A DNA stretch of 64,000 nucleotides from a virus. The position numbers and the translations under genes are program-made. The notes under the pieces were generated by a model. That model made no database searches, was not told where the DNA came from, and saw nothing but the letters and a program-made list of their open reading frames with translations. Position 1 is the first letter of the stretch; every line of letters starts with the position of its first letter. The stretch lies in the IMG/VR virus record IMGVR_UViG_3300042482_001138, positions 62,001 to 126,000 of that record; one strand, 5' to 3'. This document shows, piece after piece, positions 1,980 through 59,247 of the stretch.

Positions 1980-3974
1980 ATGGTTGTATCAGGAACAACT
2001 TTTGGTACAGATACTCTTAAAAACGTATCTGAAGCTTTAAAAAAGAATATCACCGGTATTCAAGCAATGGTTGAAGACATAGACAAACAGTTTTCAACGC
2101 TAGCAAAAACTATAGGGGCAGGAAGGGAACAGGCGTTTTTACTAAAACAAACACTTACAGAAGGTCTTACAGAAATAACAAGATTAGGAGGTAGTGTTGC
2201 TGATATAGTAAAACAACAAGAAGCTCTTTTTGCTACATTTGGAACACAACTAGTTCTTAATAAGAATGCAACAGATGAATTGTTTGCGACAACACAGGCA
2301 ACTGGTATAGAATCAAAAGACTTATTTACAAGTTACGCTAATCTAGGAAAATCAATTTACGAAGCTAATTCTGAAATGGCATCAATAATGGAAAATGCTA
2401 ACCTAATTGGTGTTAACGCAAAAGAAGTTGCAAAGTCGGTTAATGCTAACATGTCGGCACTTTCTAAAATTAACTTTAAAGATGGTGTCATGGGATTAGC
2501 CGACATGGCAGCTAAATCCGCGATGTTACGTGTAGATATGTCTACAGCACTTAAATCTGCTGAAGATTTATACAAACCAGAAAAGGCACAGTCATTTGTC
2601 AATACTTTACAACGATTGGGGGCAACAGGATCTTCAGAATTAATGAACGTTGAAAGAGTCAGATTTTTAGCAAGAAATGAACCGGCAAAGTTACAAGAAG
2701 AAATTGCTAAGATGGCATCTAAATTTGTTGACGAAACGGGTAAAATGTCTGCAATTGGAATGGACTTCTTAAAGGAAATTGCTTCTGAGTCGGGTTACAG
2801 TGCGGATGAGTTATCAAAAATGGGTATATCAATGTCTCAGTTGAAAGACAAACAAGATCTTATCAATCAAACCGGACTACAATTAACCGATCCAAAAGAA
2901 ATGGAAAAACTTACCAATTTACTTACAAAAGGTAAAGATGGTAAATTTGAAGTAACTTATGAACAAGATGGTCAACAGGTAACAAAGGCTCTTGAAGATA
3001 TGAATTCTTACGAGAGAGATCAACTTCAGAAATTTCTTCAGTCACAAAATGATCAAATTAAAAATACATTCCAAGCAAAACCAGGTGAAGACAAAAATTT
3101 AGTAAAACTTATAGAGCAACAGATGGATGTAAATACAAAATTTACACAAGCCATAAAAGCTTTAGAAACTGTAATACCATCACAAATTGCAGGTTCAAAG
3201 ACCGGAGAAAAAATGATACAAAGTATCATCGACAACACAAATAAACTTTCAACCACTGCACTTACAAAATTAGATGAGTTAAGCGATGAAGCGGGAAAGG
3301 CCGTAGACATGAAAATCAAAATAATAGAAAGTGCGGTAGACGCTATGAAACCAACACTCCAAACAGTTGTTGATACTATGGAAACTTTAGCTACCAATAC
3401 CATGCCAAGTCTTACAAGCGCAGCAAACAGATTTACAACAGCTCTTGGTAACGTGGGGACCTTTTTGACCAATACTTTTAAATTAGATGACTTTGTGAGT
3501 TTACCAGGGAACGACAGATTAATCATGGGTCCTGAAGGTTCTATAGGTAGAATAAATAGTAATGATACAATAATATCATCAACTGATGGACCAAAAACTG
3601 AAGAAGAAGTTGCTAAAATGATGGAATTAATTAAATCACCACAAACACCATTAGTTTCTTCGCCAATAGAAACAAAACCAATCTTAACTTCAGAAAATTT
3701 GGGAACTAAATCTATGATGGAAATAGAAAGAGAAAAGGCCTTGACGGATATAATGATGTCTCAAACTCCCAAAACAAGTGAAACACCAACAGAAATTAAA
3801 ACCACAAATGATATCAATCATAAATTAGACATTGTTGTTGATCTAAAAAACGTACCAACTAACATCAATCAAAATGAATTGAAAGGGGTTATTGAAAACG
3901 TTGTGTTGAAACCTGAATTTGTTAATAACATCAAAATGGGATTAGAAAAAATTAAAGGTGTTAATTACTATTAA
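1980..3974 (+). CDS. Tape measure-type tail protein
   Basis: A 664-aa, mostly helical, Ala/Lys/Glu/Thr-rich protein with no cysteine. Long amphipathic stretches alternate with short hydrophobic ones such as LTSAANRFTTALGNVGTFL near residue 480. It directly follows the gp26-like gene and chaperone-like frame, the usual place for the tape measure, which in T4 is gp29 and also part of the hub. By the usual rule of about 1.5 angstrom per residue it would specify a tail near 100 nm. The ATG at 1980 is the first in frame after the preceding stop and sits 15 bases from a TATTTAT element. Function is inferred from position, length and helical character; I see no catalytic motif. Confidence 0.6.
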   Translation: MVVSGTTFGTDTLKNVSEALKKNITGIQAMVEDIDKQFSTLAKTIGAGREQAFLLKQTLTEGLTEITRLGGSVADIVKQQEALFATFGTQLVLNKNATDELFATTQATGIESKDLFTSYANLGKSIYEANSEMASIMENANLIGVNAKEVAKSVNANMSALSKINFKDGVMGLADMAAKSAMLRVDMSTALKSAEDLYKPEKAQSFVNTLQRLGATGSSELMNVERVRFLARNEPAKLQEEIAKMASKFVDETGKMSAIGMDFLKEIASESGYSADELSKMGISMSQLKDKQDLINQTGLQLTDPKEMEKLTNLLTKGKDGKFEVTYEQDGQQVTKALEDMNSYERDQLQKFLQSQNDQIKNTFQAKPGEDKNLVKLIEQQMDVNTKFTQAIKALETVIPSQIAGSKTGEKMIQSIIDNTNKLSTTALTKLDELSDEAGKAVDMKIKIIESAVDAMKPTLQTVVDTMETLATNTMPSLTSAANRFTTALGNVGTFLTNTFKLDDFVSLPGNDRLIMGPEGSIGRINSNDTIISSTDGPKTEEEVAKMMELIKSPQTPLVSSPIETKPILTSENLGTKSMMEIEREKALTDIMMSQTPKTSETPTEIKTTNDINHKLDIVVDLKNVPTNINQNELKGVIENVVLKPEFVNNIKMGLEKIKGVNYY

Positions 3975-21754: not shown

Positions 21755-21780
21755 AATAAAATAATTAAATTTTTTTAAAA

Positions 21781-23640
21781 ATGGATATATCACAAAGAAT
21801 ATTAAGTGACATTACAGTGTACATGAAATACGCTAAGTTTCTCCCTGAAAAAAACAGACGAGAAACGTGGGAAGAATTGGTGACAAGAAACAAAGAAATG
21901 CACCAAAAAAAATACCCACAAATCAAAGACGAAATTGAAGAAGTTTATCAAATGGTATACGATAAAAAAATCCTTCCTTCAATGAGGTCTTTACAATTCG
22001 GTGGAAAACCAATTGAAATTTCACCAAACCGAGTTTATAACTGTGCTTACATGCCAATTGACCACCCTGACGCTTTTTCAGAAACAATGTTTCTATTGTT
22101 AGGTGGTACTGGTGTAGGATTTTCAGTTCAAAAACACCACGTAGAAAAACTTCCTGAAATCAAAAGACCAAACCCAAGTAGAACAAGAAGATACTTGATT
22201 GGTGATAGTATTGAAGGATGGGCTGACGCAATCAAAGTATTGATCGAATCATACTTAGGTGTTAAATCATCAACTCCTGTATTTGATTTTTCTGATATTC
22301 GTCAGAAAGGAGCGTTGTTGGTTACTTCAGGCGGAAAAGCACCAGGACCTCAACCATTAAAAGATTGTATTCATAACATTACTAAAGTATTTGAAAACAA
22401 AGTTGACGGTGAAAAACTTTCACCTATTGAAACCCACGACATCGTTTGTCATATCGCAGATGCGGTATTGGCAGGTGGTATTCGTAGAGCGGCTTTGATT
22501 TCATTATTTTCTGCTGATGATGATGAAATGATTTCTTGTAAATCAGGAAGTTGGTGGGAATCAAATCCACAAAGAGGTAGGGCGAATAACTCAGCGGTTT
22601 TACTTCGTCACAAAGTTACCAAAGAATACTTTATGGATCTTTGGAAAAGAATTGAATTGTCAGGGGCAGGGGAACCTGGTATCTATTTGTCAAATGACAA
22701 AGATTGGGGAACAAACCCATGTTGTGAGATCGGTCTTCGCCCATATCAATTCTGTAACTTGTGTGAGGTAAATGCTTCTGATATTGAGTCTCAAGAAGAT
22801 TTTGAAAAAAGAGTTAAAGGAGCTGCGTTTATCGGAACACTTCAAGCGGGATACACTGACTTCCATTATCTTCGTGATGTTTGGAAAAGAACCACTGAAA
22901 AAGACGCTCTTATTGGGGTTGGTATGACAGGTATCGGTTCAGGTGTTGTATTGGGTTATGATATGAAAGCGGCGGCAGTTGCGGTTAAAGAAGAAAACGA
23001 ACGTGTTGCAAATCTCATCGGAATTAATAAAGCAGCAAGAACAACTACAGTTAAACCATCAGGAACATCATCTTTGGTTTTAGGTACATCTTCAGGTATT
23101 CACGCATGGCATAACGACTACTACTTGCGAAGAATTCGTGTGGGTAAAAATGAGGCGATTTACTCTTACTTGGCAATTAACCACCCTGAGTTAGTTGAAG
23201 ATGAATTTTTCAGACCACATGATACCGCAGTAATTACAATTCCACAGAAAGCACCTGAAGGGTCAATTCTTCGTCACGAGTCTGTATTCCAAATGTTAGA
23301 ACGTGTAAAGAAAGTATCACAAGAATGGATTAAGTTTGGACATAGAGGTGGTCAAAATTCACATAATGTATCTGCAACAGTTTCAATTAAAGAAGATGAA
23401 TGGGAATTAGTTGGTGATTGGATGTGGAGTAACAGAAAATTCTACAATGGACTTTCAGTTCTTCCTTACAACGGTGGAACATATACTCAAGCACCATTTG
23501 AAGATTGTACACAAGAAGACTTTGAACGATTAATCAAAACTTTATCAGATGTTGATTTAACTAAAGTTATCGAGTTACAAGATAATACTAATTTAAGTGG
23601 TGAAGCCGCATGTGCCGGTGGAGCTTGTGAAATAGTATAA
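21781..23640 (+). CDS. nrdJ: Adenosylcobalamin-dependent (class II) ribonucleoside-triphosphate reductase
   Basis: A 619-aa monomeric class II enzyme of the Lactobacillus leichmannii RTPR type, which makes dNTPs with a B12-generated thiyl radical. Residues follow RTPR: NPCCE at 312-316 gives the radical Cys314 and Glu316; Cys325 lies 11 residues on, like RTPR C408-C419; Cys88 is the likely disulphide partner. TVKPSGTSSLVLG is the phosphate-binding loop. The C-terminal Cys611-x4-Cys616, three residues from the end, matches RTPR C731/C736. It is about 120 aa shorter than RTPR (739 aa). No small-subunit gene is needed or present. Oxygen-independent dNTP synthesis would depend on cobalamin in the host. 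Confidence 0.88.
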   Translation: MDISQRILSDITVYMKYAKFLPEKNRRETWEELVTRNKEMHQKKYPQIKDEIEEVYQMVYDKKILPSMRSLQFGGKPIEISPNRVYNCAYMPIDHPDAFSETMFLLLGGTGVGFSVQKHHVEKLPEIKRPNPSRTRRYLIGDSIEGWADAIKVLIESYLGVKSSTPVFDFSDIRQKGALLVTSGGKAPGPQPLKDCIHNITKVFENKVDGEKLSPIETHDIVCHIADAVLAGGIRRAALISLFSADDDEMISCKSGSWWESNPQRGRANNSAVLLRHKVTKEYFMDLWKRIELSGAGEPGIYLSNDKDWGTNPCCEIGLRPYQFCNLCEVNASDIESQEDFEKRVKGAAFIGTLQAGYTDFHYLRDVWKRTTEKDALIGVGMTGIGSGVVLGYDMKAAAVAVKEENERVANLIGINKAARTTTVKPSGTSSLVLGTSSGIHAWHNDYYLRRIRVGKNEAIYSYLAINHPELVEDEFFRPHDTAVITIPQKAPEGSILRHESVFQMLERVKKVSQEWIKFGHRGGQNSHNVSATVSIKEDEWELVGDWMWSNRKFYNGLSVLPYNGGTYTQAPFEDCTQEDFERLIKTLSDVDLTKVIELQDNTNLSGEAACAGGACEIV

Positions 23641-23911: not shown

Positions 23912-23918
23912 TATTTAT
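23912..23918 (+). promoter_or_regulatory. TATTTAT element near the gp25-like start
   Basis: TATTTAT lies just downstream of the terminator and only five bases before the ATG at 23924. As a promoter it would put the transcript start at or inside the first codon, so either the mRNA is leaderless or translation begins elsewhere. Confidence 0.35.
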
Positions 23919-23923
23919 TGAAT

Positions 23924-24382
23924 ATGGCAAACGGTATAACTTATGGTATAACCTTCCCCTTTAGAGATTCTTTTGATGGGAAGTATTTAGACTTGACTGA
24001 CTATGCGTCCGAAGAAGTTAGAACGGACCTTATTCATTTATTATTGACCAGAAAAGGGAGTAGGTATTATTTACCTGATTTCGGAACAAGGTTGTATGAA
24101 TATATTTTCGAACCACTTGATGGACCAACTTTTGCTGAAATAGAAGCTGAAATTAGAGACTCTGTTGAAGAATTTATGCCGGGGGTACTTATTACAAACA
24201 TAACAATTACAGACGCATCCATGGATGAAGAAAATAAAGGTACGTTTATAAATGGTGATGATCAAAGAGAATTTACAGTACCTAACATATCACAAAAAGA
24301 ACATACGGCAAGAGTTAAAATTGATTACAAAATAACTTCAGATTCGTTCAATAGTTCTGATTTCATTATTTTGAATATTTAA
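23924..24382 (+). CDS. Baseplate wedge protein gp25-like
   Basis: A 152-aa gp25-like protein: ITFPFRDSFDGKYLDLT, then VRTDLIHLLLTRKGSRYYLPDFGTRL with the family R-x-Y-x-P-x-F-G-x-x-L motif, then EPLDGPTFAEIEAEI. Gp25 connects the wedge to the first sheath ring in contractile tails and related secretion machines. I chose the ATG at 23924, giving MANG, rather than the in-frame TTG at 23918, which lies in the TATTTAT element. It opens the second baseplate block and is followed after five bases by the gp6-like gene, the usual pairing. Confidence 0.85.
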   Translation: MANGITYGITFPFRDSFDGKYLDLTDYASEEVRTDLIHLLLTRKGSRYYLPDFGTRLYEYIFEPLDGPTFAEIEAEIRDSVEEFMPGVLITNITITDASMDEENKGTFINGDDQREFTVPNISQKEHTARVKIDYKITSDSFNSSDFIILNI

Positions 24383-24387
24383 TATAT

Positions 24388-26229
24388 ATGGCAGAAAAGA
24401 AAATTTCATACACGGTAAGGGACTTCCAAGGAGTAAGGACTGAATTAGTCAACTACGTCAAAACTTACTATCCTGAATTAATTCAAAACTTTAATGATGC
24501 ATCTGTTTTTTCAGTTTTGATGGACTTGAATGCTGCGGTCGCGGATAACCTTAATTTTCAAATTGATAGGAGTATCCAAGAAACAGTTTTACAGTACGCT
24601 CAACAAAAAACATCACTTTTTAATATCGCTAGAACCTACGGATTAAAAATACCGGGACAAAGACCTTCGATATCTTTGGTTGATTTTTCAATCACTGTTC
24701 CTGCCTTTGGTGACAAAGAAGATATAAGATATTGTGGTATTTTAAGACGTGGAACACAAGTCAACGGTGCTGGACAGTCTTTCGAAACGGTATATGATAT
24801 TGATTTTTCTTCGCAATATAATGGCGAAGGACAACCTAATTCCCGAATTGTTAGACCTAACGTTGATGCAAATGGTACGATAATTAATTATACAGTAACT
24901 AAACGTGAAGTTGTGTTAAATGGTTTAACCAAAGTTTTCAAAAGAGTAATTACCCCTAATGATGTAAGACCATTTTTTGAACTTTTCTTACCCGAAAGAA
25001 ATGTTTTAGGTGTTACAAGTGTTATTGTTAAAGATGGTTCACAATATAGTAACGTTCCTTCGGATCAAGAGTTTTTATCACCAAATGGTAGATGGTATGA
25101 AGTAAGAGCTCTTGTTGACGACAGAGTTTTTGTTGAAGACCCAACAAAACCTTCTGACGCGCCAGGAATAAAAATTGGTAGATATATAAGTACAAGTGAC
25201 AAGTTTATAACAGAATATACACCCCAAGGGTTTTTAAAACTTACATTTGGTGGTGGTAATAATTCCGCAGAAGATCAATTGCGTGAATTTGCAAGGAACG
25301 GACAATCAATAAACATAAATAAGTATGTTAATAATTTAGGGTTAGGAAACACTTTAAAATCCAATTCAACCTTGTTTATACAATATCGAGTTGGGGGTGG
25401 TGTTGCAAGTAATGTTGGAATTGGTGTTATAACACAAGTTCAGAGAAGCAACTTTTTTGTAAACGGTCCATCTGAAAACATAAATACAAGTGTGGTTAAT
25501 TCCCTAAGTTGTACAAACCCAATAGCCGCGGTTGGTGGGGCGGGAGCACCAACATTGGAAGAAATCAGAAACTTTGTTTCATTCAACTTTTCAGCTCAAA
25601 ACAGAGCGGTTACAGTTAATGACTATGATTCAATATTAAGAAACATGCCTTCCCAATTTGGAGCACCATCTAAAGTATCGATAGTTGAAGAAAATAATAA
25701 AATAAAAATCAAACTTCTATCTTACGATTCTAACGGAACGTTAACATCTATTGTACCTAACGCACTTAAAACTAACATCGCTAATTACCTGTCAAATTAT
25801 AGAATGATAAATGATTATGTTTCTGTAGAAAGTGCTAATGTTATTGATTTAGGGTTTGACATATCTGTGGTTTTAGATTCATCACAAAGTCAAGGATCAA
25901 TTATTGCAAAAATAGTTGACATAGTATCAACATATATGTCACCGACATCAAGACAACTAGGTCAAAACGTTAATGTATCTGAACTAAGAAGACAAATTCA
26001 AACAGAAAACGGGGTGTTGTCTATATCTGATATTCAAGTTTTTAATAAAGTTGGTGGACAATATTCATCATCACAAACCTCACAACCATATTCAAATCAA
26101 GCGACAAAACAGATCGAACTTATTTCAGATACTATCTTTGCGGAACCAACTCAGATCTATCAAGTAAGATTCCCGAATAAAGATATTAGAGTAAGTGTGG
26201 TCAATTTATCTACAGTTACATTCTCTTGA
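24388..26229 (+). CDS. Baseplate wedge protein gp6-like (baseplate J family)
   Basis: The 613 aa compare with 660 in T4 gp6. The N-terminal segment YTVRDFQGVRTELVNYVKTY, then FNDASVFSVLMDLNAAVADNL, and the central PTLEEIRNFVSFNFSAQNRAVTVNDYDSIL are typical of gp6/J-like proteins that form the dimeric ring of the baseplate and drive its opening. A C-terminal segment (residues ~490-560) includes a beta-rich unit with VSELRRQIQTENGVLSI. Adjacent gp25-like gene supports the call. Confidence 0.85.
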   Translation: MAEKKISYTVRDFQGVRTELVNYVKTYYPELIQNFNDASVFSVLMDLNAAVADNLNFQIDRSIQETVLQYAQQKTSLFNIARTYGLKIPGQRPSISLVDFSITVPAFGDKEDIRYCGILRRGTQVNGAGQSFETVYDIDFSSQYNGEGQPNSRIVRPNVDANGTIINYTVTKREVVLNGLTKVFKRVITPNDVRPFFELFLPERNVLGVTSVIVKDGSQYSNVPSDQEFLSPNGRWYEVRALVDDRVFVEDPTKPSDAPGIKIGRYISTSDKFITEYTPQGFLKLTFGGGNNSAEDQLREFARNGQSININKYVNNLGLGNTLKSNSTLFIQYRVGGGVASNVGIGVITQVQRSNFFVNGPSENINTSVVNSLSCTNPIAAVGGAGAPTLEEIRNFVSFNFSAQNRAVTVNDYDSILRNMPSQFGAPSKVSIVEENNKIKIKLLSYDSNGTLTSIVPNALKTNIANYLSNYRMINDYVSVESANVIDLGFDISVVLDSSQSQGSIIAKIVDIVSTYMSPTSRQLGQNVNVSELRRQIQTENGVLSISDIQVFNKVGGQYSSSQTSQPYSNQATKQIELISDTIFAEPTQIYQVRFPNKDIRVSVVNLSTVTFS

Positions 26230-26301: not shown

Positions 26302-29300
26302 ATGCCACATTCATATAGAATTAGAACCAATATAGGTGTTGATAAAGCTGTAAATTTGAAGTTCGAACAAGATTTTGATTTTATAGAAATTTTATCGTTA
26401 AAGTTAACACAAGCCGAAGTTTATGAAAGAAGATGTTCAGACTACGGGGTAATTGCTGGAAGGGTTTCTGTGAATGGTGGTTTCGGTTTAGCAAATGCTA
26501 AATTATCTGTCTTCATACCGTTAACTAATGAAGATGAATTAAATCCTATAATTAGTGAATTATATCCCTATAAAACATTAAATAGTAGAAATGAAGACGG
26601 GTATAAATACAATCTACTACCTAAATCACCAGAGTATCCTGGCCACGTACCTACAGGTAGTTTTTTCGATAGGGATGAGGTAATTTTAGAAAAATCTATA
26701 ATAGAAGTTTACGATAAGTATTATAAATATACTGTAACTACAAACGAAAGTGGTGACTTCATGATTTTTGGAGTACCAACAGGGCAACAAACATTGGTTT
26801 TAAATCTTGACTTGTCCAATATCGGTTGTTTTTCTTTGACACCCCAAGACTTGATAGATAGTGGTTTTGCAGTTGAAAGCCAATTTAATGGATCACAATT
26901 TAAATCTTCAAACAATTTAAATGAATTACCACAAATTATTACTTTAGTTAAGCAAGTCAATGTTGAACCCCTTTGGGGTGAACCTGATATTTGTTTTATT
27001 GGTATCACAAGACAAGATTTTGATCTTTCACAAGAAATCAATTTAACAATCAAACCAAGTGCTGTATTCATGGGGTCAATAGCGTCAACCCAAGATGATC
27101 AGGCACTTAAAACTACCTGTAGAGTACCAAGTGCTGCCGGTAGTTTTTGTTCATTAAAGGCAGGACAAGGAAGAATATCCGCAGTCAGACAAACTATTGC
27201 TGTTGATGGTAATGGTTATCCTATTTTGGAAGAATATCAAATTGAACAAGGGGGTAAAGTTATAGACGGGGACGGAACTTATCTTTTAAAAGTACCTATG
27301 AATTTGGATTACATAACTACTGATGAATTTGGTAATCAAGTTATATCATTAGACCCAACAGTTGGTATACCTACTAAAGGAAAATATAGATTTAAAATTA
27401 GTTGGCAAAATGATGGAGGAGCTCAAAGCGATGTCTTAAGAGCTAATTTTTTAGTTCCGAACATCAAAGAATATGGTTGGGCATCAACAACACCTAATGC
27501 AGACCCAACTTTGGGTGTACCTTTGAATTACTCTGTATCAATACCGGGTACAACGACAAGTCAACCATCCGCATTAGTTTTACCAGCACAAACAGGGGGA
27601 CTTATTCTTCAATCTTTTGTTAATACAGGTGACGTATCGGTAACAATAAACGGTGTTCCTTACACAGGTAGTTTAACATCAATTCCTATAAACTCACCAG
27701 GTTCAGTGATAGGGATAAATTCTACTGCGGTTGACACAACCCAAACACAAGATTTCCAATTCACGTTTTATGATCAGGCAACTTATGACTCTTTAAGGTC
27801 TTATGCTTTTAGTTTGGATTGGGACGATTATGGTGATTCGTCTATGATTCAAGAAGCAATTAATTGTGAAGACAGATTTTATGAATTTAACTATAATAAA
27901 GTTTACACAACGGCCATGTTCTTGGATAGATACAAAAATGGTATTTGGAAAGCAAGACATTTAGGTATTAAAGAAATTGACGACAGAGAATGTATATCAA
28001 CAAGCAATCCATTTCCAGTCAATGATGCAGTACAAAAGTTTGATTTTATTTATTTTTTGGGGATGTTGTTGTTAAACATACTCACATTTCCAATACTTGT
28101 TCTACTTTTTGTCGCTCACTTTGTAGCTTGGATATGGCCTGTTATTAAGTGGGTTTTAGTTATTCTGTGTATATATTTTCTCTATATCCAAGTTCGTGAA
28201 ACTATAGACGCAATAAATTCAGCACTTGAAACTGCCGCTGCGGCAATTCCTGGTGGACCAATAGTGAATATAGGTGCAATTCTTAGAGCTGCTTGGCAAA
28301 TATTACAGGCCGTTTTTAAGTTAGCGTTGTATTTGGTTTTCTTTGCGTTTGTAATAGTATTCATAATAAGATTGAAAGGATTTCCAAGAATCGGATTACC
28401 AATGATATCTTATCCAGAATGTAACGCTTGTGATTGTGCGTGTAATAACGCCGAACTTGATGATGATTTTGATATCAGTTCCGTCACTCAACAAATAAAT
28501 AATGAATACAACAATCAACAAACACAAGCCGGTAGTCCCGCTCAAACAACAACAGATAATACTTTTTTAGCCCCGTTGAGTTCACCAGCAACCTATTCCT
28601 TGGCTGAACACCCAAACTACCTTCAGAACGACCCTAACGATGATATTGATCAAAATAATAAAGGTAAATTTTATTGTGGTGGTAGTTTACAATATAAGTC
28701 TTTAATCAACAGAGTCACAGCTCAAGAAATAACATCTGATGTTTTGTCACAAGCTCTTTTAGATTATCAAAGAATATTTTCAGGTTATGACCTAATAGAT
28801 TCAACAAACAAATATAAATTACATGCACCACAACCATTCTTGTTTGCTGCCGATAAAACCGCTGGACCTGATGAAAGATGGTTTGCTTATCCAACACAAG
28901 AAACGTATCCACAAAAATTGAATGAATTTAATACAAGGGACAAGTATTTTTATAGCAACACTTCTAATACACCAAATAGTGGTGTTAACAAAATAAAAAC
29001 AACAGTAAACCCTTCTTTACCCTTACCAAGCCAACCATTTGAAGATCAAGTTCTTGTTGTTGTTGCTAAAGCCGGCATGATTCAACAACTTGGAATAGGT
29101 GAAATAATATCGTTCCAAGACCCAACATTATCCAACGGATGGATCAATTTGACAGGGGCAACACAAAACCAATTTAATAATACGGCAATTACAGGTACTA
29201 CTTCGACAGGAAATACAACAACACCTATTGTAAAAACAATTTCATATGCGGACCCGTCACAAAACGGATCGGTTTCATTATCGAGTACAATTTACCTATT

Positions 29301-31761
29301 GAATACGGGCCAAACAGAATCTTATCTTCAATATCCTAATGATATAGAATACTTCCAAGTTATAACAGGATTTACTTATAATAGTTTTACGTCAAATCCT
29401 AATTTTAGTATTGCTGACTTACAAAAATTTCCTAAAAAATACTTATTTCATGAAATAGGATATGTGTATGAAGACGAATGTAATCCAAATACAAATAATT
29501 TCCCAATAATCAAAAATTCAGGTAGAGCGATTGATAACATCGCAACATCATCACGAAATTCATATGAAATTATAATCCTAACAAGGGGTGTTGATCCTCA
29601 TACCCCAAAACAAGAAATTGAGTATGATTTATCGATTATATTCGGTAATGCATCTTATGGTGTAGGACCAATAGTTACGGGACAATATTATTTGAACTAC
29701 CCAATTCAAGCGGTCCCAACACAAGTTAAACCTGTATCACATGATACATTAGATAATACAACTGTTAATTTATACTTCCCGTCATTTACATTTAATTTAA
29801 CACCTGGACAGTATACACCATTCACATCTACGTTACCATACTATTATTTATCAACTGATGACAATTCAGGATCATACACTCCTGACCCCGTCTTTCAAAC
29901 TGTTTCTGTCATATCTTCCGTACCATATAACTTATTCACTACAGCACCATACAATTATGTAATACCTAAATATGTACAAGACTATTTTGTTGGTGGTACT
30001 TTTATTGGATCCCAAAGTACCTCAGGACCATCATCACCAATTTATATATTCAAAACTACAGTGGGACAAAATAGTGATTATGGTACTTCACCAAGTGGAT
30101 ACAACGGATTATACTCAAGAGCATATTATAGATACTTGGCGGGTTCTGTAAACTTTTTAGATGAAACTAATTTGGTGATGAGAAGCGATAGATTACCAAC
30201 ATCTTCTAGAACTGAAGAAGGTAACTCAAGTGAAACATCATATGCACTTCACCAAAATAGTAACTTCTACTTTTACAAAGGTGGTGGAGTACAAAATAAC
30301 CCAAGTGTTTCGGCACCAGGAACACCTCCAACAGGAATTTATGCAGATTCAACACCATTAGTTACAGGATTGACTCAAACACTAACATGTGAAGGTATGG
30401 TTGCTCTAAAATGTTATTCAGGAACCGGTACAGGTATAACTGTAAACACCAATTGTGACATACCGGCCAACCGCGTTGTTAATGGATGTTATTGTCTACT
30501 TAATAAAAAATACATAAGCCAATATGATGAAGATGTTAAGTTATTTTTAGAATGGAAAGTTAGATATCTAATTATGTTAGCGGCATGTAGAGGGGTTTTT
30601 GGAAGAGTATTTCAAAACAATTGGATTAATGGTTTTCTATATATGCCTTCATTTAGTAAAACATCTACCTACGGACCTGGTACAATAACAAACCCAACTT
30701 ACAATTATTGTAAAGACACGATTGTTTATGAAGATGCTCAAAATAGTTTTTATTATAGATCATCACCATGGGATAGATTTATAAACCAATTTATAGGTAA
30801 ACCGGCACCAACACCTCCAAACAACATATTATCTGCTTTTGTTAGTAATCCAGGATATAACACAAAACAACTTCAAAGTCCTACTACAATTGTCGACTTA
30901 GGACCAAGAGATGAATTTATAAATCAAGTATGTAATAACGAAAATTTAGAAGGTTATTATGCTAATCAACTAAAATCAACTTCATATAGTGACGATTCTG
31001 ATATTATGCAAATGGGATTCATTTCTAGATTACTCAATCAAACTATAATACAACAAATGTTCCCTATTGCAACAAACGGAAATCAAGGAGAAGGTATTGG
31101 AATAATTCAGTTTTTCAATAGTAATCGTGGTGGGGGAAGAATTGATGGAGATTTTGCACAAGCACTATCAACAAACAGTGAATTCAAAGTTACGCCTTAT
31201 TTGAATGAAAATTACCCGAACAATTATCTTTTCATAGGTGATGACGCACAGTCACCATCGAAACCTTTGTTTGGTATTTTCTTTCAGGCAAATAATAATG
31301 AAACAATATATAGAAAACAGCTATCACCTGGTGTACAAACTTACAACTTGTCACCATTTGTTGGTTATACATATGGATACCCAACAACACAAGAAGTACC
31401 TTTTTACAAGTGGCAAATAACAAACCCAACTACTTTTATTTTTGGAACTGAAAATAACAATTGGTATACGGCACCTTTTACAACTACAGGTGGTTTTTAT
31501 AAAAACAAATATCAATCTTTAGACTTCCAAACATCAGATTATTTTAAAACAACAACGACACAAGAAGGTCATATTACCAACTTTACCCCAGGACCTAACC
31601 CAACAATCGCTAACGTCACATATGGTGCACCAAACACACCTGGTGTTGACCCTGTTTTAGTTGGGGCACCCTTCCATTTTTATTTCGGGTTAAGTAATGG
31701 TTACACGGCACTTGACAGATTTATTAAACTTTATGTAAACAACAAAAATACTAATGGGTAA
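26302..31761 (+). CDS. Giant tail protein with internal membrane-spanning bundle
   Basis: 1819 aa. The N-terminal ~180 residues hold a carboxypeptidase-regulatory-like beta fold (NESGDFMIFGVPTGQQTLVL). Residues ~580-692 are strikingly hydrophobic: segments beginning FIYFLGMLLLNILTFPILVL, FVAWIWPVIKWVLVILCIYF and LALYLVFFAFVIVFIIRL would form three or four transmembrane helices. A Cys-rich ECNACDCACNN cluster (residues ~706-716) follows. The remaining ~1100 residues are Asn/Thr/Tyr-rich, virion-like. It lies between the gp6-like gene and further baseplate genes and overlaps the next gene by eight bases. A structural protein that inserts into the host envelope during DNA delivery is one reading; the function is unproven. 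Confidence 0.6.
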   Translation: MPHSYRIRTNIGVDKAVNLKFEQDFDFIEILSLKLTQAEVYERRCSDYGVIAGRVSVNGGFGLANAKLSVFIPLTNEDELNPIISELYPYKTLNSRNEDGYKYNLLPKSPEYPGHVPTGSFFDRDEVILEKSIIEVYDKYYKYTVTTNESGDFMIFGVPTGQQTLVLNLDLSNIGCFSLTPQDLIDSGFAVESQFNGSQFKSSNNLNELPQIITLVKQVNVEPLWGEPDICFIGITRQDFDLSQEINLTIKPSAVFMGSIASTQDDQALKTTCRVPSAAGSFCSLKAGQGRISAVRQTIAVDGNGYPILEEYQIEQGGKVIDGDGTYLLKVPMNLDYITTDEFGNQVISLDPTVGIPTKGKYRFKISWQNDGGAQSDVLRANFLVPNIKEYGWASTTPNADPTLGVPLNYSVSIPGTTTSQPSALVLPAQTGGLILQSFVNTGDVSVTINGVPYTGSLTSIPINSPGSVIGINSTAVDTTQTQDFQFTFYDQATYDSLRSYAFSLDWDDYGDSSMIQEAINCEDRFYEFNYNKVYTTAMFLDRYKNGIWKARHLGIKEIDDRECISTSNPFPVNDAVQKFDFIYFLGMLLLNILTFPILVLLFVAHFVAWIWPVIKWVLVILCIYFLYIQVRETIDAINSALETAAAAIPGGPIVNIGAILRAAWQILQAVFKLALYLVFFAFVIVFIIRLKGFPRIGLPMISYPECNACDCACNNAELDDDFDISSVTQQINNEYNNQQTQAGSPAQTTTDNTFLAPLSSPATYSLAEHPNYLQNDPNDDIDQNNKGKFYCGGSLQYKSLINRVTAQEITSDVLSQALLDYQRIFSGYDLIDSTNKYKLHAPQPFLFAADKTAGPDERWFAYPTQETYPQKLNEFNTRDKYFYSNTSNTPNSGVNKIKTTVNPSLPLPSQPFEDQVLVVVAKAGMIQQLGIGEIISFQDPTLSNGWINLTGATQNQFNNTAITGTTSTGNTTTPIVKTISYADPSQNGSVSLSSTIYLLNTGQTESYLQYPNDIEYFQVITGFTYNSFTSNPNFSIADLQKFPKKYLFHEIGYVYEDECNPNTNNFPIIKNSGRAIDNIATSSRNSYEIIILTRGVDPHTPKQEIEYDLSIIFGNASYGVGPIVTGQYYLNYPIQAVPTQVKPVSHDTLDNTTVNLYFPSFTFNLTPGQYTPFTSTLPYYYLSTDDNSGSYTPDPVFQTVSVISSVPYNLFTTAPYNYVIPKYVQDYFVGGTFIGSQSTSGPSSPIYIFKTTVGQNSDYGTSPSGYNGLYSRAYYRYLAGSVNFLDETNLVMRSDRLPTSSRTEEGNSSETSYALHQNSNFYFYKGGGVQNNPSVSAPGTPPTGIYADSTPLVTGLTQTLTCEGMVALKCYSGTGTGITVNTNCDIPANRVVNGCYCLLNKKYISQYDEDVKLFLEWKVRYLIMLAACRGVFGRVFQNNWINGFLYMPSFSKTSTYGPGTITNPTYNYCKDTIVYEDAQNSFYYRSSPWDRFINQFIGKPAPTPPNNILSAFVSNPGYNTKQLQSPTTIVDLGPRDEFINQVCNNENLEGYYANQLKSTSYSDDSDIMQMGFISRLLNQTIIQQMFPIATNGNQGEGIGIIQFFNSNRGGGRIDGDFAQALSTNSEFKVTPYLNENYPNNYLFIGDDAQSPSKPLFGIFFQANNNETIYRKQLSPGVQTYNLSPFVGYTYGYPTTQEVPFYKWQITNPTTFIFGTENNNWYTAPFTTTGGFYKNKYQSLDFQTSDYFKTTTTQEGHITNFTPGPNPTIANVTYGAPNTPGVDPVLVGAPFHFYFGLSNGYTALDRFIKLYVNNKNTNG

Positions 31762-33502
31762 TAATGAAAACATACAAATATTGTTAGGTTCTAAAAAAAA
31801 CAAAGTATCATCTGATGTTGATATGGCGATAAGGGTTCCTTTGAATCAAACATTTAAACAACAAGTTGAGTACGATAGAACGGAAGAAATTGACTTGGCA
31901 CAGTTATATCAAAAAGAAAGACAAGAATCAACAATTTTTAGACCAACCACTAAAATTGTTTTTCTTTTCAATAACAGTTATAGTGGTAGTACTTCATATG
32001 TACCTTTCAGGGATAATTTATATTACACTAATTCAGTTGCAAACGCGATCACATCAAGTGGTAACCCAAACGCACCTTGGGATGGATTTCCACAGTATAC
32101 AGAATTTGACTTCATAAGAACAGACAACAATATTAATGGTTATACTACAGGACCAAATAGTCATATTAGTTTCATAAATAAAAGTGCCACTTCATATAAT
32201 TGGATGTATTATTTAACTTATCCACATTTAAATGTTGATAGACAATTATATGCCGACGATCAAAACACATCCAACACTTGGACATGGCAAGCATTTGATG
32301 GTATACCATTTATAATTGAAAACAATTCACTTTATGGAAATGATGTAATTTCTTTCAGATGTCCTATGAAACATGGGTTATCTGTTGGTGAATATGTAAA
32401 ACTCAATTTCAACTATAACGGTGTTGATACTTTTCAAGTAACATCACTTGGTAATCAGAACTTTGGGTCTGGTGAATTTATTTTTAACATTCAAAATATA
32501 GGTTATTTACCACCAACATTTAACAACGGTACAACAGGTACTTTTAAAAGAGTTATAAATAATACAAACGAAATTGACACAACTTCGAATTATTATGTTA
32601 GAGTACATAAAATATTAACATCAATTAATGATTCTGTATTAGTCAACGCTGGCTTCGAAAAAAATGTTTTTGGTAAAGTTACAAAATATGAAAAGGCAGT
32701 ATTAACCCCAAATAATTTGAATAGATCTTCAATCAAACAAGGTAATGATACTTACAATTTATTATTCAATAATGACATCAATATAGAAGGATTAAGAGAT
32801 AATCTTAATAGACCAATTAGCGAATTGTTTTTTAGTTTTATTTGGAAAGGTTATTTTGGTTGGACTTTAGGACCAAACACTAACCTGAAAGAAGGTTATG
32901 AGTTTAATCTACCTTTGGAAAATAACCAACCAAGTGTTTGGTGGGATCAAACAAATACGTTATCTAATACTAATTTACCAATAAACACTTACGTTTCTAA
33001 TGGTAACACGTTTTACTATGTTGAAAATTTGAACTTAGGTGATAACATTAATGGGGATTTTTGTGAATTCAACCCATATGATCAAACAGAAAGAGTAATT
33101 TCTGATGTATACCAAAAACTAATATTCAATAACAACTATTTCAGTGCACCAACACTTTTAGCGCCAAATAACCCATTAGGATATTACTATAAAGTACATC
33201 ACCCAATGACAATAAAGGTATTTTCAACATCGATAAATGATGAAGGATATCAAAATATTAATTTAGTTCCTGATTACGCATACTTTTCAACCACAAGTCA
33301 AACTTTCAGATGGAGAGATATTTACCCATATGGGTATAAAGACAGTGAAGGTTTCGGTGTTGACTATCCTTTTTTGAATGGAAGTCACTACCCCTACGAC
33401 CAAATTATATTTAGGTTAGTTGGGGATGGAAGTAACGTTGACGGAACTCTATTAAATAATCAAAATGTAATTGCAGAACCTACTATAGATGATTGTGAAT
33501 AA
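31754..33502 (+). CDS. Baseplate/tail structural protein, unidentified
   Basis: 582 aa, beta-rich, Asn/Tyr/Phe-rich, with no cysteine cluster, signal peptide or catalytic motif that I can see. It begins with a polar segment (GSKKNKVSSDVDMAIRVPLN) typical of proteins that dock on a baseplate. It overlaps both neighbours (8 and 14 bases), so it is made together with the 1819-aa protein. Function is inferred from location only. Confidence 0.6.
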   Translation: MGNNENIQILLGSKKNKVSSDVDMAIRVPLNQTFKQQVEYDRTEEIDLAQLYQKERQESTIFRPTTKIVFLFNNSYSGSTSYVPFRDNLYYTNSVANAITSSGNPNAPWDGFPQYTEFDFIRTDNNINGYTTGPNSHISFINKSATSYNWMYYLTYPHLNVDRQLYADDQNTSNTWTWQAFDGIPFIIENNSLYGNDVISFRCPMKHGLSVGEYVKLNFNYNGVDTFQVTSLGNQNFGSGEFIFNIQNIGYLPPTFNNGTTGTFKRVINNTNEIDTTSNYYVRVHKILTSINDSVLVNAGFEKNVFGKVTKYEKAVLTPNNLNRSSIKQGNDTYNLLFNNDINIEGLRDNLNRPISELFFSFIWKGYFGWTLGPNTNLKEGYEFNLPLENNQPSVWWDQTNTLSNTNLPINTYVSNGNTFYYVENLNLGDNINGDFCEFNPYDQTERVISDVYQKLIFNNNYFSAPTLLAPNNPLGYYYKVHHPMTIKVFSTSINDEGYQNINLVPDYAYFSTTSQTFRWRDIYPYGYKDSEGFGVDYPFLNGSHYPYDQIIFRLVGDGSNVDGTLLNNQNVIAEPTIDDCE

Positions 33503-35451: not shown

Positions 35452-36360
35452 ATGGCAACAGGTACATATGGAACTATAAGACCGGCGGATGTAAGTCCTA
35501 CTGATGTAGACATAATATTGAATTATACACCATCACGAGATGTTACAAATGATTTCCAATTAACTAAACTTAATTCATCTGCGGTTTTAACACCATACTT
35601 TAACAATGCGAATACTGGTGGAAATGCTGGTATAGAAATATTAGGTGGTTTATATAATTTAAGACTACCGGCAAATGTTTTCAATCAACTTGGAATTTAC
35701 ACTTTATATATTAGACCGGCCGAAATTAGAACTAAAATAACTGATTGTGGTATTTTAGCCGCACTTCCAAACATAAAAGGTCTTGTTATAGACATAAGTA
35801 ATGTACCTGTTGCTTTCAGGGACAAATTTGTCAATCAAGGATTAATTGGATATAGGGTCGAATATCTTCAATCTAATGGTGCTAAAATTCCTAATTTTTT
35901 TAGAATTATAACTTCATCATTTTATTGTGAACCTGTTGTACAAAATACAACAAATACATCAACAAGTACTGTAAGATATCAATATGTCAATGGTGTTACA
36001 AATTTAATTTTTTGTACCTTGTCACCATCATCGTCCCCATCAAATAAACCAAACGCAACACCATTTATTGGGCAACCCGATCAAGACATTATTATAAGTA
36101 ATACTTTTTTCAATCCTATTACTATGGAAATTGAAATGGTTGAACATGATATTTCTACTTTAGCAATTGCATTGTTTGGTAATCAGACTAAGTCTCTTAA
36201 TGACGGTATCTACACACTTTACGATTCACAAAATAACATTTACAAACAGTACAATTTATTTGAAATTAGAGATCAATACAATGAGTTGTTATATGAAGTT
36301 AGACAAGATAGAAATAATAACATTGATTTTAGTAAAAACTTTGCAAACATAACACAATAA
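35452..36360 (+). CDS. Tail structural protein, unidentified
   Basis: 302 aa, starting MATGTYGTIRPADVSPTDVD. It is beta-rich, with a central block (LPNIKGLVIDISNVP, NQGLIGYRVEYLQSNGAKIP) that looks like a conserved virion protein of large T4-like phages, but I cannot name the T4 counterpart. A poly-Ser/Pro turn (SPSSSPSNKP) interrupts the middle. It ends by overlapping the next ATG by one base. Confidence 0.6.
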   Translation: MATGTYGTIRPADVSPTDVDIILNYTPSRDVTNDFQLTKLNSSAVLTPYFNNANTGGNAGIEILGGLYNLRLPANVFNQLGIYTLYIRPAEIRTKITDCGILAALPNIKGLVIDISNVPVAFRDKFVNQGLIGYRVEYLQSNGAKIPNFFRIITSSFYCEPVVQNTTNTSTSTVRYQYVNGVTNLIFCTLSPSSSPSNKPNATPFIGQPDQDIIISNTFFNPITMEIEMVEHDISTLAIALFGNQTKSLNDGIYTLYDSQNNIYKQYNLFEIRDQYNELLYEVRQDRNNNIDFSKNFANITQ

Positions 36361-39300
36361 TGGCGGTAATAAAATATAAATGGCCACCTCAAACCGACAC
36401 AGGAGCGAGTACTTTTTCCGACGACTTGGTTGGTGTACAACTTGTTGCCGGTGGAGGTTTAACTAACGCTAATTTTGAATTCACAACGGGATTAACGGAA
36501 AAACAAAATAGGAAATTTAACATAGGTGCCTTTTCTAGTCCAATTAGTTTAGATGATTTGGACCTAAAAAGTGTTGAAGAATCAAAAGTTTTAATTGCAA
36601 AAAATTTACAGGTATACCCTAATTTTGATTTAAGTCAAATAACTAATTTTACTTTGTTCGGCTCGTTGACCAAAAGGATATCAACTTCAATAAGTAGAAT
36701 TATAAATTACTTTCCGGCGGGTATAGAAAGTTTGTCGCAAAATTTGAATTTCCAAACAGGACTTACCGCGGTAAATATGTATTACGATAAAGTTCTTGAT
36801 GAAACTTATTTAGAATTACCATTAAACAGAATCAGAAATCCTTTTGATATTGATTTTACTACTACAGCTACACGAAATTTTGAACTTAGCGAAATTGAAG
36901 TTTCACCCTTAAGAAATCTTACAGTGGAATATCTAAACTATTCAATATTTGTTAATAGTTCAGAATATAATGTAATATTCTTAGATCCTGTTGATGATAC
37001 TGATACTGTGTTAAAACTTTATGTCACTGGTAACCCATTCAGTGGATTATCAGCTACGACCTCTGACATAGTGTTAAGACCTAATACTTTTTATACGGAA
37101 AAATCTTTCAATGACTTTTTTGATGAGGTTGAAAAGTTTCTTCTTAATAGATTGATTCTACCTATTTACACTGCGACTTTTCAAGTACCACAAGAAAATG
37201 ATGATGGAACTTATTCTACAGTTAACCAAACAATAAGTTGGCCGTTGGACGGTTCATGGAACCTTGATATTAGAACAAATGATTTCGATAAGTATTTGAC
37301 AACATTGAATACAATTTGTGAAAATTTAGATTCGTACAACACAAATTTAATTTCAAGATTTTTGACCACAGGTGCATTAAAAGAATTTGATACAAGTGAT
37401 AGAAAAATAGAAAAAGTCTTACAAATTTACGGTAGAAGTTTTGATGAAGTTAGAAAATTTGTTATGTCCTTGGCAAATATGACATCAGTAAATTATAATA
37501 CTGGCAACGATATTCCATCACAACTTTTGAAAAACTTAGCAGAAACATTAGGATGGAAAACAAATATTTCTCCAATAAGTAATGAAGGTTTGTTGGATTC
37601 AATATTTGGTACTAATCAAGAAAGTAATTTTCCTGGATATTCAAGAGCACTTACACCTGATGAAATTAATTATCAATTCTATAAGAATTTAATACTAAAT
37701 GCGGCATATCTTTTTAAATCTAAAGGTACTAGAAGATCCATTGAAATTCTTTTGAGACTTGTTGGTGCGCCAGAAGCCCTAATAGATTTTAACGAATACA
37801 TATATATTGCTGATGAAAAAATAAACTTATCACAATTTGATAAACAATATTTAAACATTTCAAGTGGACTTTATGTTCAACAGACCCCTGTATTGGATCC
37901 AACGGATATCTTTTCTATCATGGGAGTTCAGTATACTGGGTTTACCTTACAAACGACTGTAAGTGGTGTATCTACAACTAGATTGGACTATCCTATGGAC
38001 AATCAAGGGTACCCAACGGCACCACAAGAAAATGATGGATACTTCTTTCAAATTGGTGGTGGATGGTTTGAATCAACACCTGATCATCACATGCCAGAAC
38101 AAGTAGTACCTACTAACCAAGTTTTTGTTGGGCAGAATCCTAATTATCAGACAGTTTTATTACCGTTTAATTACGGGCAAATATATTTGGATAGATACCG
38201 TAAGTTTCCATTTATGAGTGTTGGTTACGGATTAAACAAAACTATAGATAATAAAAAAAGTTGGACTATTGATAATGTTGGATTAAGAAAAAGTTCTGAC
38301 GGAGGGTTCAATGCTTATTATAGGGTTTATGATGAAAGATATGTTGTAAACGTAAAAAACGTAGATGTATTTCTCAATCCAGCCCAAGGGTTAGCTTACG
38401 ACGTTTGGTCTATGTCAAGAAGATACAATTACCCAATACCTAATGAAGGATTAGATTATGTAGAACCAACTTATTGTAATCCAAATCCAAATGGACCATA
38501 TCCAAATAGGGGTGGTATAGATTGGACAGAAATAAATCCTAAGCCAAAACAAAAAACATTTTTTGAGTTTGCCCAAACTTTTTGGAAGAACATGATTAAT
38601 GTAAGGAATAGACAATTTATTACCGATGGTAAAACCGGTGGTTACCCAACTTTACAATCAATTTATTGGAAATATTTAGAGTCTAATCAAACAATCAATA
38701 TACCTAATGATAATTTCACATATAGAACAATGATCGACTATGTGAATGGTTTAGGGGATTATTGGATTAAACTTGTGGGACAAATGATACCAGCAACAAC
38801 TTTATTAACATCTGGTGTGAGGTTAGAAAATTCCATATTTCATAGACAAAAATTTGTTTGGAGAAGGCAAATGGGATGTCAAATTATACCAGTACCTTGC
38901 AAACCTTGTTCTTTAATTGGTCAACTGTTTGCGGTAGATTGTCCAATACAATCGGCAACATGTCCTGTTTATCCTTGGGGATCTAACCCTTTAATTACAT
39001 CTTTTGCGGTTGTACTGAATCAACTTCTACAAAATAAAGGATTAGTACAACCTAATTGTGACCCAAATACATTGGAAAGTACTTGGTATGTAGACTTAGT
39101 TTTAAACGGGGATTTACTATCACACTATGAATTTTTCACGGGTTACGGAAATACAAGTCCTACAGCTAGTTATCCGTCAAACACGGTTTGGTTGTCGGCT
39201 TTACAGTCTGCTTTAAGTAATTTACAATCAGAAGGATTAGATTATGTTATCAACAGTGATGACACTGTCACAATATATAATAGTAACTGTATACCCCTAA

Positions 39301-39362
39301 GTGTTACCCAAAATTTTGAAATAAATGTTGGGATAAACTTTAATTTACTTTGTATTCAATGA
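36360..39362 (+). CDS. Large baseplate/tail protein with C-terminal fibre module
   Basis: 1000 aa. The first ~850 residues are a virion-type protein (VGVQLVAGGGLTNANFEF; LKEFDTSDRKIEKVLQIYGR; LFKSKGTRRSIEILLRLVGA), the latter two resembling wedge or tail proteins that encircle the hub. A Cys/Pro-rich hinge (IIPVPCKPCSLIGQLFAVDC) near residue 845 leads to a ~100-residue C-terminal domain. That domain (WLSALQSALSNLQSEGLDYV, TVTIYNSNC) recurs in the next gene. The stop TGA overlaps the next ATG (ATGA), so the fibre gene is translationally coupled to it, as expected for an attachment protein. Confidence 0.6.
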   Translation: MAVIKYKWPPQTDTGASTFSDDLVGVQLVAGGGLTNANFEFTTGLTEKQNRKFNIGAFSSPISLDDLDLKSVEESKVLIAKNLQVYPNFDLSQITNFTLFGSLTKRISTSISRIINYFPAGIESLSQNLNFQTGLTAVNMYYDKVLDETYLELPLNRIRNPFDIDFTTTATRNFELSEIEVSPLRNLTVEYLNYSIFVNSSEYNVIFLDPVDDTDTVLKLYVTGNPFSGLSATTSDIVLRPNTFYTEKSFNDFFDEVEKFLLNRLILPIYTATFQVPQENDDGTYSTVNQTISWPLDGSWNLDIRTNDFDKYLTTLNTICENLDSYNTNLISRFLTTGALKEFDTSDRKIEKVLQIYGRSFDEVRKFVMSLANMTSVNYNTGNDIPSQLLKNLAETLGWKTNISPISNEGLLDSIFGTNQESNFPGYSRALTPDEINYQFYKNLILNAAYLFKSKGTRRSIEILLRLVGAPEALIDFNEYIYIADEKINLSQFDKQYLNISSGLYVQQTPVLDPTDIFSIMGVQYTGFTLQTTVSGVSTTRLDYPMDNQGYPTAPQENDGYFFQIGGGWFESTPDHHMPEQVVPTNQVFVGQNPNYQTVLLPFNYGQIYLDRYRKFPFMSVGYGLNKTIDNKKSWTIDNVGLRKSSDGGFNAYYRVYDERYVVNVKNVDVFLNPAQGLAYDVWSMSRRYNYPIPNEGLDYVEPTYCNPNPNGPYPNRGGIDWTEINPKPKQKTFFEFAQTFWKNMINVRNRQFITDGKTGGYPTLQSIYWKYLESNQTINIPNDNFTYRTMIDYVNGLGDYWIKLVGQMIPATTLLTSGVRLENSIFHRQKFVWRRQMGCQIIPVPCKPCSLIGQLFAVDCPIQSATCPVYPWGSNPLITSFAVVLNQLLQNKGLVQPNCDPNTLESTWYVDLVLNGDLLSHYEFFTGYGNTSPTASYPSNTVWLSALQSALSNLQSEGLDYVINSDDTVTIYNSNCIPLSVTQNFEINVGINFNLLCIQ

Positions 39363-58565: not shown

Positions 58566-59247
58566 TAAAGAAACAATGCAGGCAGTGTCTGCATATTGTG
58601 AGTCCGAAGATATTAAAGACGTTGATAAGTTTATGTACCTTTGTTTTAAACAAGGATTTGATATCAAAAGATATGGATTTTTGGGGGAAACACTTAATGA
58701 AGGTGAAAAAGACTTAAAAATGAACGAAGTCCAAGAAAAATGGGTGGAAAAGGAGGTAATTGTTGAAAAACGAGTGGAAATTCCTGTTGAAGTCATCAAA
58801 GAAGTTGAAAAAATTGTTGAAGTCATAAAAGAAGTTATTGTAGAAAAGGAAATAATAAAAGAAGTTCCAGTTGAGATTGTAAAAGAGGTTGAAAAGATTG
58901 TAACAATAACCAATAATGAAGAGCTTGAGGAAAAAATTTTCCAATTAAACAAAGATTTGGAGTCAGAACGGAAAATTTTTTCCACTAAAATGGAAGAAAT
59001 GGAAAATAATTTCCAAAATGAAATGTCTAAAAAGATTAAAGAATTAGATGAACTTAGACATAATTTAGACATTATAAAAGAAAATGACAAAACAAAACTC
59101 CTTCAGGATACTTTACAAAAATTAAGAAAAGAAATTTCAGATAAAAATAAAAAAATTGAAGAATTAGAAAAAATAAACAATAGACCAAATAGTGATGTAA
59201 TAAATGCAATTTTCATGAAAGGGTCAAATTTAAAAGATATATTATGA
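58537..59247 (+). CDS. Coiled-coil protein between gp47 and gp46
   Basis: 236 aa. Residues ~1-65 are a small helical domain. About residues 70-122 consist of a Val/Ile-Glu-Lys repeat (VIVEKRVEIPVEVIKEVEKI and on), followed by ordinary heptad coiled coil to residue ~215. The 29-base overlap with the gp47-like gene and four-base overlap with the next ATG place it firmly in the operon. I know no T4 equivalent. An accessory or scaffold for the gp46/gp47 complex, or an envelope linker with the following membrane protein, is possible. Confidence 0.65.
   Translation: MEPKKSKIFSKETMQAVSAYCESEDIKDVDKFMYLCFKQGFDIKRYGFLGETLNEGEKDLKMNEVQEKWVEKEVIVEKRVEIPVEVIKEVEKIVEVIKEVIVEKEIIKEVPVEIVKEVEKIVTITNNEELEEKIFQLNKDLESERKIFSTKMEEMENNFQNEMSKKIKELDELRHNLDIIKENDKTKLLQDTLQKLRKEISDKNKKIEELEKINNRPNSDVINAIFMKGSNLKDIL

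Follow-up and report, generated by a model that had tools for sequence, protein, structure and literature searches.

A giant tail-cluster protein of uncultured phages carries a conserved apolar module that may engage membranes

The window analyzed here, a stretch of 64,000 nucleotides, comprises bases 62001-126000 of a viral record that totals 274,138 bases, and its surroundings are those of a T4-like tail cluster (Table 1). Among its genes is a giant open reading frame (ORF) that starts 72 bases past the end of the gp6/Baseplate_J-like gene, confirming the adjacency that an earlier, sequence-only reading of this DNA had noted. Two groups of tail genes are separated, at window positions 20366-23640, by a DnaB-like helicase (20366) and a ribonucleotide reductase (21781), and the same record holds, upstream of the window, an ORF of 3394 aa (L246:3825-14009). 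The ORF at 1980-3974 is a candidate tape measure gene from its expected position and its look. It has no significant family match, its relatives occur at 8 loci in viral contigs, and a tape measure gene search with PF10145 gave two weak matches in 12 records, neither over the cut-off.

Table 1. Genes of the tail cluster and features of the giant protein. Positions refer to the window unless another contig is named.
Feature	Position	Strand	Basis or remark
Tube gene	at 468		
T4_baseplate (PF12322) gene	at 1060		
Candidate tape measure protein, 664 aa, hydrophilic	1980..3974	+	position and look only; top hydropathy 0.73
gp53-like gene	at 8855		
gp25-like baseplate wedge gene	23918..24382	+	PF04965 1.4e-11; phrog_261 6.3e-15
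gp6/Baseplate_J-like wedge gene	24388..26229	+	phrog_219 4.8e-19; PF04865 0.001, below cut-off
Giant tail-cluster protein, 1819 aa, with membrane-like module	26302..31761	+	ORF and relatives
aa 1-390, most widely conserved part, beta-rich	26302..27471	+	homology, folds
aa 404-494, beta domain	27511..27783	+	structural match 9f4b_F2
Predicted helix 582-645, apolar about 583-634	28045..28236	+	AlphaFold2, hydropathy, conservation
Predicted helix 657-690, stays hydrophobic as its residues change	28270..28371	+	AlphaFold2, alignment
CNACDCACNN, aa 707-716	28420..28449	+	Cys 707/710/712/714 in 24/24 window-clade representatives
NNWING, aa 1439-1444	30616..30633	+	motif shared with relatives
582-aa gene	31754..33502	+	8-base overlap with the end of the giant ORF
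Probable gp7/P2 gpI (Tail_P2_I)-like wedge protein, 1000 aa, tentative	36360..39362	+	weak Tail_P2_I scores in relatives
Sheath-like ORF upstream of the window	L247:16088-19411		named by look only

The giant protein has three separate 19-residue Kyte-Doolittle peaks, of 2.58 (586-604), 2.21 (611-629) and 2.85 (671-689), and its longest run containing no more than two residues from the set D, E, K, R, N, Q and H extends over 37 residues (593-629). The strongly hydrophobic stretch reported earlier at residues ~580-692 of the 1819-aa ORF is therefore present, with its three peaks within aa 586-689; the span quoted for it, 28040-28452, correctly marks the feature but starts one base out of frame, as residue 580 begins at 28039. 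Taken by itself, the height of these peaks is only moderately unusual: when the protein was shuffled (n=2000) the 95th percentile of hydropathy was 2.33 and the maximum 2.98, above the observed 2.85, so that peak height and composition alone are weak evidence. The apolar module is more than chance, and the real evidence for this is its conservation in relatives, which rules out a chance origin. In the window, none of 14 other tail-region ORFs compared has a peak above 1.34. Among the ORFs from 39350 onward, which fall outside this set and were held to a threshold of 1.6, the sole one above it is ORF 59244-59651 (135 aa), and the listed ORFs of at least 150 aa in the 40 kb upstream contain no segment above 1.6.

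To follow the module through the family, we searched with the window protein and obtained 379 relatives; the best 80 were taken and, with the window, gave 58 distinct sequences of at least 1750 aa. More distant relatives came from four MAG contigs and two more scans (the best 80 of 161 and the best 80 of 226), in which 164 profile-matching ORFs reduced to 104 distinct complete ones once repeated sequences and ORFs truncated at a contig end (L085 included) had been dropped. The combined 162 full-length proteins (58 near, 104 distant) formed 38 clusters at less than 70% identity over the N-terminal part. For residue-level comparison, the window clade was reduced to 24 representatives sharing less than 85% identity, and the clade of the short relative L126 to 49 of its 54 sequences with the end motif. 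The highest hydropathy peak of the protein (1.82-3.26) lies within -40 to +170 residues of the equivalent of P572 in 36 of the 38 clusters; apolar segments of bilayer length, as an integral membrane module would require, are thus kept in relatives. Another segment above 1.6 occurs outside the module in 5/38 clusters, and the module itself is missing in two, L082 (747 aa) and L084 (728 aa), both on MAG contigs. As a control, we applied the threshold of 1.6 to other genes of the same loci, where it was passed by 1/67 clusters of the gp6-like gene, 0/66 of the gp25-like gene, 0/85 of the next gene and 0/13 of the gp7-like gene, against 88/90 clusters of the giant under the same crude clustering (a shared-word cut, which differs from the 38 clusters; some control ORFs are partial). 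The earlier proposal of a membrane-active or shielded component thus stands as a fair reading, given that the module is so widely kept and distinct among baseplate genes; actual entry into a membrane is presumptive.

The gene order around the giant is similarly conserved. Among distant loci with at least 3 kb of upstream flank, a gp6-like ORF ends no more than 600 bp upstream in 81/90 (the loci without one in place being L084, L087, L090, L092, L093, L097, L102, L104 and L212); a gp25-like ORF lies within 4 kb in 80/90 and the same next gene follows directly downstream in 88/96, as judged by three rounds of iterated profile search at 1e-5 with no checking by hand. In T4, gene 7 comes right after gene 6, and its GenBank entry carries the note 'C-terminus is predicted integral membrane domain'. 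From this gene order and note we first favored the giant as the gp7 protein, an identification that was dropped when Tail_P2_I pointed to another ORF. This family scored weakly in 3 of 12 records (E 2e-4, 0.0019 and 0.068, none over the cut-off), each time in an ORF located roughly 7 to 11 kb past the giant's end; in a control on 14 well-known genomes it scored in 6 and was over the cut-off in 2. A profile made from the three scoring ORFs reached the fifth ORF downstream of the giant (36360-39362) at 2.6e-40 in the first round. Three of 18 members of the resulting family touch Tail_P2_I by hmmscan (best 0.024), and both the direct comparison of this family with T4 gp7 and a PDB sequence search with it were negative. 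On these sequence comparisons the fifth ORF is probably, and still tentatively, a gp7/gpI-like wedge protein. Since a probable gp7-like gene thus lies elsewhere in the window, we do not call the giant a gp7 homologue, and since gp25, gp6 and probably gp7 are complete without it, the giant is tentatively an additional component.

By hhalign, the window-clade alignment (24 members) matched T4 gp7 with a probability of 0.1%, in a test that is insensitive because it fails for the gp7-like ORF too, and the giant gave no match with T4 gp8 or gp10. T4 gp7 resembles the giant in the place of its gene and in its predicted integral membrane domain, with one apolar segment at 2.07 (886-904), but this segment lies near the C-terminus and the two proteins have no profile match. 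T4 gp29 has one peak of 2.20 and T4 gp11 reaches 1.66. The view that the module has no T4 counterpart has to be qualified, in that gp7 and gp29 each carry one such segment.

The window protein belongs to no family in PHROGs, Pfam (up to E 0.5) or NCBIfam, and NCBIfam has no family for L126 or L083 either; the 24 window-clade members, compared with PHROGs, reached four families, the best at E 0.11. By sequence, the PDB offered nothing better than E 0.054, and tblastn with the window protein, L079, L083 and L166 found no match among 50,697 phage records, a set from which near records may have been left out. The best viral fold match, A0A8S5LA66 of Myoviridae sp. ctPuP5 in BFVD (E 2.4e-43, 40% identity over 435 columns), is a homologue of the giant, uncharacterised and with no named function. 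We know of no cultured member of this protein group. The giant seems to be an additional, uncharacterised member of the tail cluster in phages that are uncultured and often huge. No description of it was found in the literature, including the sections consulted of PMC12363816, PMC10457771, PMC6300606, PMC8894136 and PMC10996793, which is no proof that it is unpublished.

The core shared by these proteins opens with the N-terminal ~390 aa; a linker bearing Y-T and G-I-K motifs leads to the apolar module, after which come a variable stretch that contains Cys, a W-x-N-G motif and an F-Y-F-G-L-like end, the last found in 20/38 clusters by the pattern used. The W-x-N-G motif, in the form (N/Q/D)(D/N/S)W(I/L/V/M)NG, occurs in 33/38 clusters and falls at aa 584-693 in those of the L083/L126 type; some 725 residues separate it from the Cys cluster in the window protein and ~65 in, for example, L089. 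Fold searches mainly matched single beta domains. Residues ~47-242 have a weak likeness to carboxypeptidase-regulatory/transthyretin-like domains (Z 5.5-7.0), which may reflect only a common arrangement, and the best match of aa 404-494 is a Klebsiella phage baseplate cup (Z 8.9, rmsd 2.4, 86 residues), barely above the usual background. The fold matches listed include no entry named T4 gp7, gp8 or gp10. Over aa 579-704, a match to Vip3 (Z 6.9, rmsd 7.9) was set aside as a helical coincidence. The module is barely tested by these searches, so we make no claim of a new fold for it.

An AlphaFold2 model of aa 1-800 (mean pLDDT 74, pTM 0.61) predicts helices 582-645 and 657-690 as a hairpin, with block pLDDT values of 72-82 over 581-640 and 661-690, 54-55 over 641-660, and 33-36 over 701-720, the stretch that holds the Cys segment. 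Where three or four helices had been proposed, the hydrophobicity is thus real but the number is uncertain, the model having two. L126, modeled over aa 1-949 (mean pLDDT 69.5, pTM 0.76), has a single helix of 30 residues (459-488) at the module, unlike its hydropathy profile, which shows two segments there. These moderate-confidence predictions, a hairpin in one protein and one helix in the other, suggest that the number of helices may not be constant between clades.

F580, D581, F585, H606, W612, P613 and K616 are invariant in the 24 window-clade representatives, and Asn occurs in 21/24 at position 592 and in 21/24 at 588, where the window protein itself has Met; at 100 degrees per residue, by hand arithmetic, positions 588, 592 and 606 share one face of helix 1. 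Hydropathy moments exceed those of shuffles over 582-608 (p 0.02) and 660-690 (p 0.004). All 49 sequences of the L126 clade keep C465 and N479, Lys is the commonest residue at 469 (28/49), and the helix is amphipathic (p 0.0002), with a Cys/Lys/Asn stripe along one face. Such a polar stripe, narrow on an otherwise wide apolar helix, would suit helices packed round a polar line in a membrane, and would also suit a helix buried in a protein core. Conservation separates the two predicted helices: the entropy of hydrophobic positions is 1.64 in helix 2, 0.85 in helix 582-608 and 0.70 in the N-terminal domain. The hydrophobic positions of helix 2 thus vary in identity yet remain apolar, which favors contact with lipid, a pattern not seen in 582-608. 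K/R690 and R696 follow the last helix in 24/24 representatives, but the flanking charges amount to at most a weak positive-inside signal, too weak a bias to fix topology.

These data lead us to hypothesize, tentatively and as a good possibility that falls somewhat short of probable, that the giant is a tail protein of the virion with a membrane-engaging module used at infection. It would be an accessory protein of the contractile tail or baseplate, made beside gp25 and gp6, in which the apolar helical module sits between the beta-rich N-terminal part and a C-terminal part. In the free virion the module may be buried by neighboring subunits, and rearrangement of the baseplate at infection could bring several copies of it into engagement with the host lipid bilayer, where the engaged module would hold or open the envelope at the tail. 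We infer the virion location, the entry of the helices into a membrane, and action at infection rather than during assembly. That a phage-tail-like particle can contain a protein with a membrane helix has a precedent in Cis13 of the Anabaena tCIS (PMC8894136).

The alternative that weighs most heavily is that the hydrophobic bundle is permanently buried, between subunits or with partners, as the packed core of an oligomer that never meets a membrane, a serious if rather doubtful possibility. The amphipathic helix of the L126 clade with its Cys/Lys/Asn stripe, the raised moments in both predicted helices and the difference in predicted helix count between clades all suit such a core, and the clade differences, together with the lack of the module in L082 and L084, count against a membrane role. 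T4 gp11 is a soluble protein of known structure, and its peak, together with that of gp7, a wedge protein that likewise carries a predicted membrane segment, means that a single apolar segment proves no membrane insertion. Moreover, wedge proteins form helix-turn-helix core bundles, as described in PMC10457771. However, a run of 37 residues with at most two polar ones and peaks of up to 3.26 count against a packed core, as does a second helix that stays apolar while its residues vary, and the wedge core bundle already has candidates in the gp6-like and, tentatively, the gp7-like proteins.

The comparison with Cis13 raises the question of when a membrane would be contacted. With Cis12, Cis13 belongs to the thylakoid-anchored CIS of Anabaena, and like the giant it combines a putative membrane helix (aa 122-154) with soluble domains and is encoded with baseplate genes; unlike the giant, it is tail-fibre-like and anchors the particle in the producer's own thylakoid membrane (PMC8894136). 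The giant is phage-encoded and its membrane contact is presumed, and the likeness is one of description rather than of compared sequences. By analogy, the helices could hold the growing baseplate at the producer's inner membrane until lysis releases the particle, a reading that we regard as decidedly unlikely. Removal of the membrane domain of Cis13 left 9/14 CIS free-floating (PMC8894136), apolar helices made in the cytoplasm would presumably be natural substrates for membrane insertion, and there is the weak positive charge after the last helix. Against this, none of the titles and abstract openings surveyed mentions a tailed phage anchored in this way, the charges form a weak pattern, and the helix count predicted depends on the clade. 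The presumptive character of the virion location also leaves room for a membrane protein outside the virion that is merely encoded in the tail cluster, acting for example in exclusion or egress. Its synteny with gp25, gp6 and the next gene across distant phages, its size, its beta-rich character and the baseplate-cup match of aa 404-494 make this most unlikely.

The segment CNACDCACNN, reported to follow the hydrophobic stretch, is present at aa 707-716. Four Cys within eight residues appeared in 0/2000 shuffles, and the CxxCxCxC pattern is invariant in 24/24 representatives of the window clade. The clusters of L222, L230 and L242 keep C-x2-C-x-C but carry Ser or Ile where the fourth Cys would be, a YPxC-type motif occurs in 19/38 clusters with a variable number of Cys, and other clusters show other Cys patterns. 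From these alignments, the Cys cluster is best read as a possible clade-specific metal site or local brace, rather than a shared lock, and the suggestion that it acts as a lock finds no support in a pattern that is not shared across clades. Outside the cluster, fifteen more Cys are invariant in 24/24 window-clade representatives, at 45, 176, 231, 273, 283, 522, 564, 1363, 1371, 1385, 1396, 1398, 1429, 1470 and 1544.

The sequence-only reading had gone further and proposed that the module inserts into the inner membrane and opens a channel for DNA, with the Cys cluster as a possible lock, taken here to be a redox lock. This would be a special case of the membrane-engaging reading that we prefer, and we consider it very unlikely. 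The conserved apolar module and a candidate tape measure protein with no membrane segment speak for it, since in some phages such a channel has been attributed to the tape measure protein (PMC10996793); in T4 and T5, however, this protein has little to no predicted membrane region by the same account, although T4 gp29 shows its peak of 2.20 by the measure used here, so the absence of such a region in the candidate is not telling. Nothing puts the giant at the tail tip, and the Cys pattern differs across clades. With contractile tails in general, a protein at the level of the wedges would meet the outer membrane first in a host with two membranes; should the host be of that kind, this too would argue against a channel in the inner membrane. 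We therefore find no support for such a channel, as nothing shows one and the predicted helix number varies between clades.

The tape measure proteins of diffocin (CD1366) and TP901-1, which have predicted transmembrane regions, resemble the giant in their apolar helices, for which a membrane pore has been proposed (PMC10996793). The giant differs in being mainly beta outside the module (in the models of window aa 1-800 and L126 aa 1-949) and in having its gene within the wedge cluster, after gp6; as far as these models go, it is not a long helical or coiled protein encoded between the tube and hub genes, as a tape measure protein would be. A bolder form of the membrane-engaging reading, which we hold to be unlikely, is that the giant is a dedicated membrane-inserting protein beside gp6 whose polar-striped helices come together as an oligomeric pore or collar within the host envelope at the opening of the baseplate. 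If true, it would take on a job that other phages either leave to the tape measure protein or lack altogether.

It is not settled how contractile phages get through the inner membrane, and discussion of membrane helices has centered mainly on tape measure proteins. As a kind, membrane helices in proteins of tail-like machines are already known; here they would belong to a different tail-cluster gene, common to distant uncultured phages (in records of up to 412 kb) and carrying its apolar module at a fixed place. Should the module enter membranes, the family offers a new and testable way into the problem of how the envelope is crossed; should it prove to be a packed core, it cautions against inferring a membrane role from the hydropathy of giant structural proteins. 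In both cases, a family is defined that the searched libraries leave unnamed. A scan with L084 as query gave no relative in viral contigs. The two module-free short homologues, L082:2870-5113 and L084:9965-12151, lie on Candidatus Wolfebacteria and Bacteroidota MAG contigs and provide natural controls.
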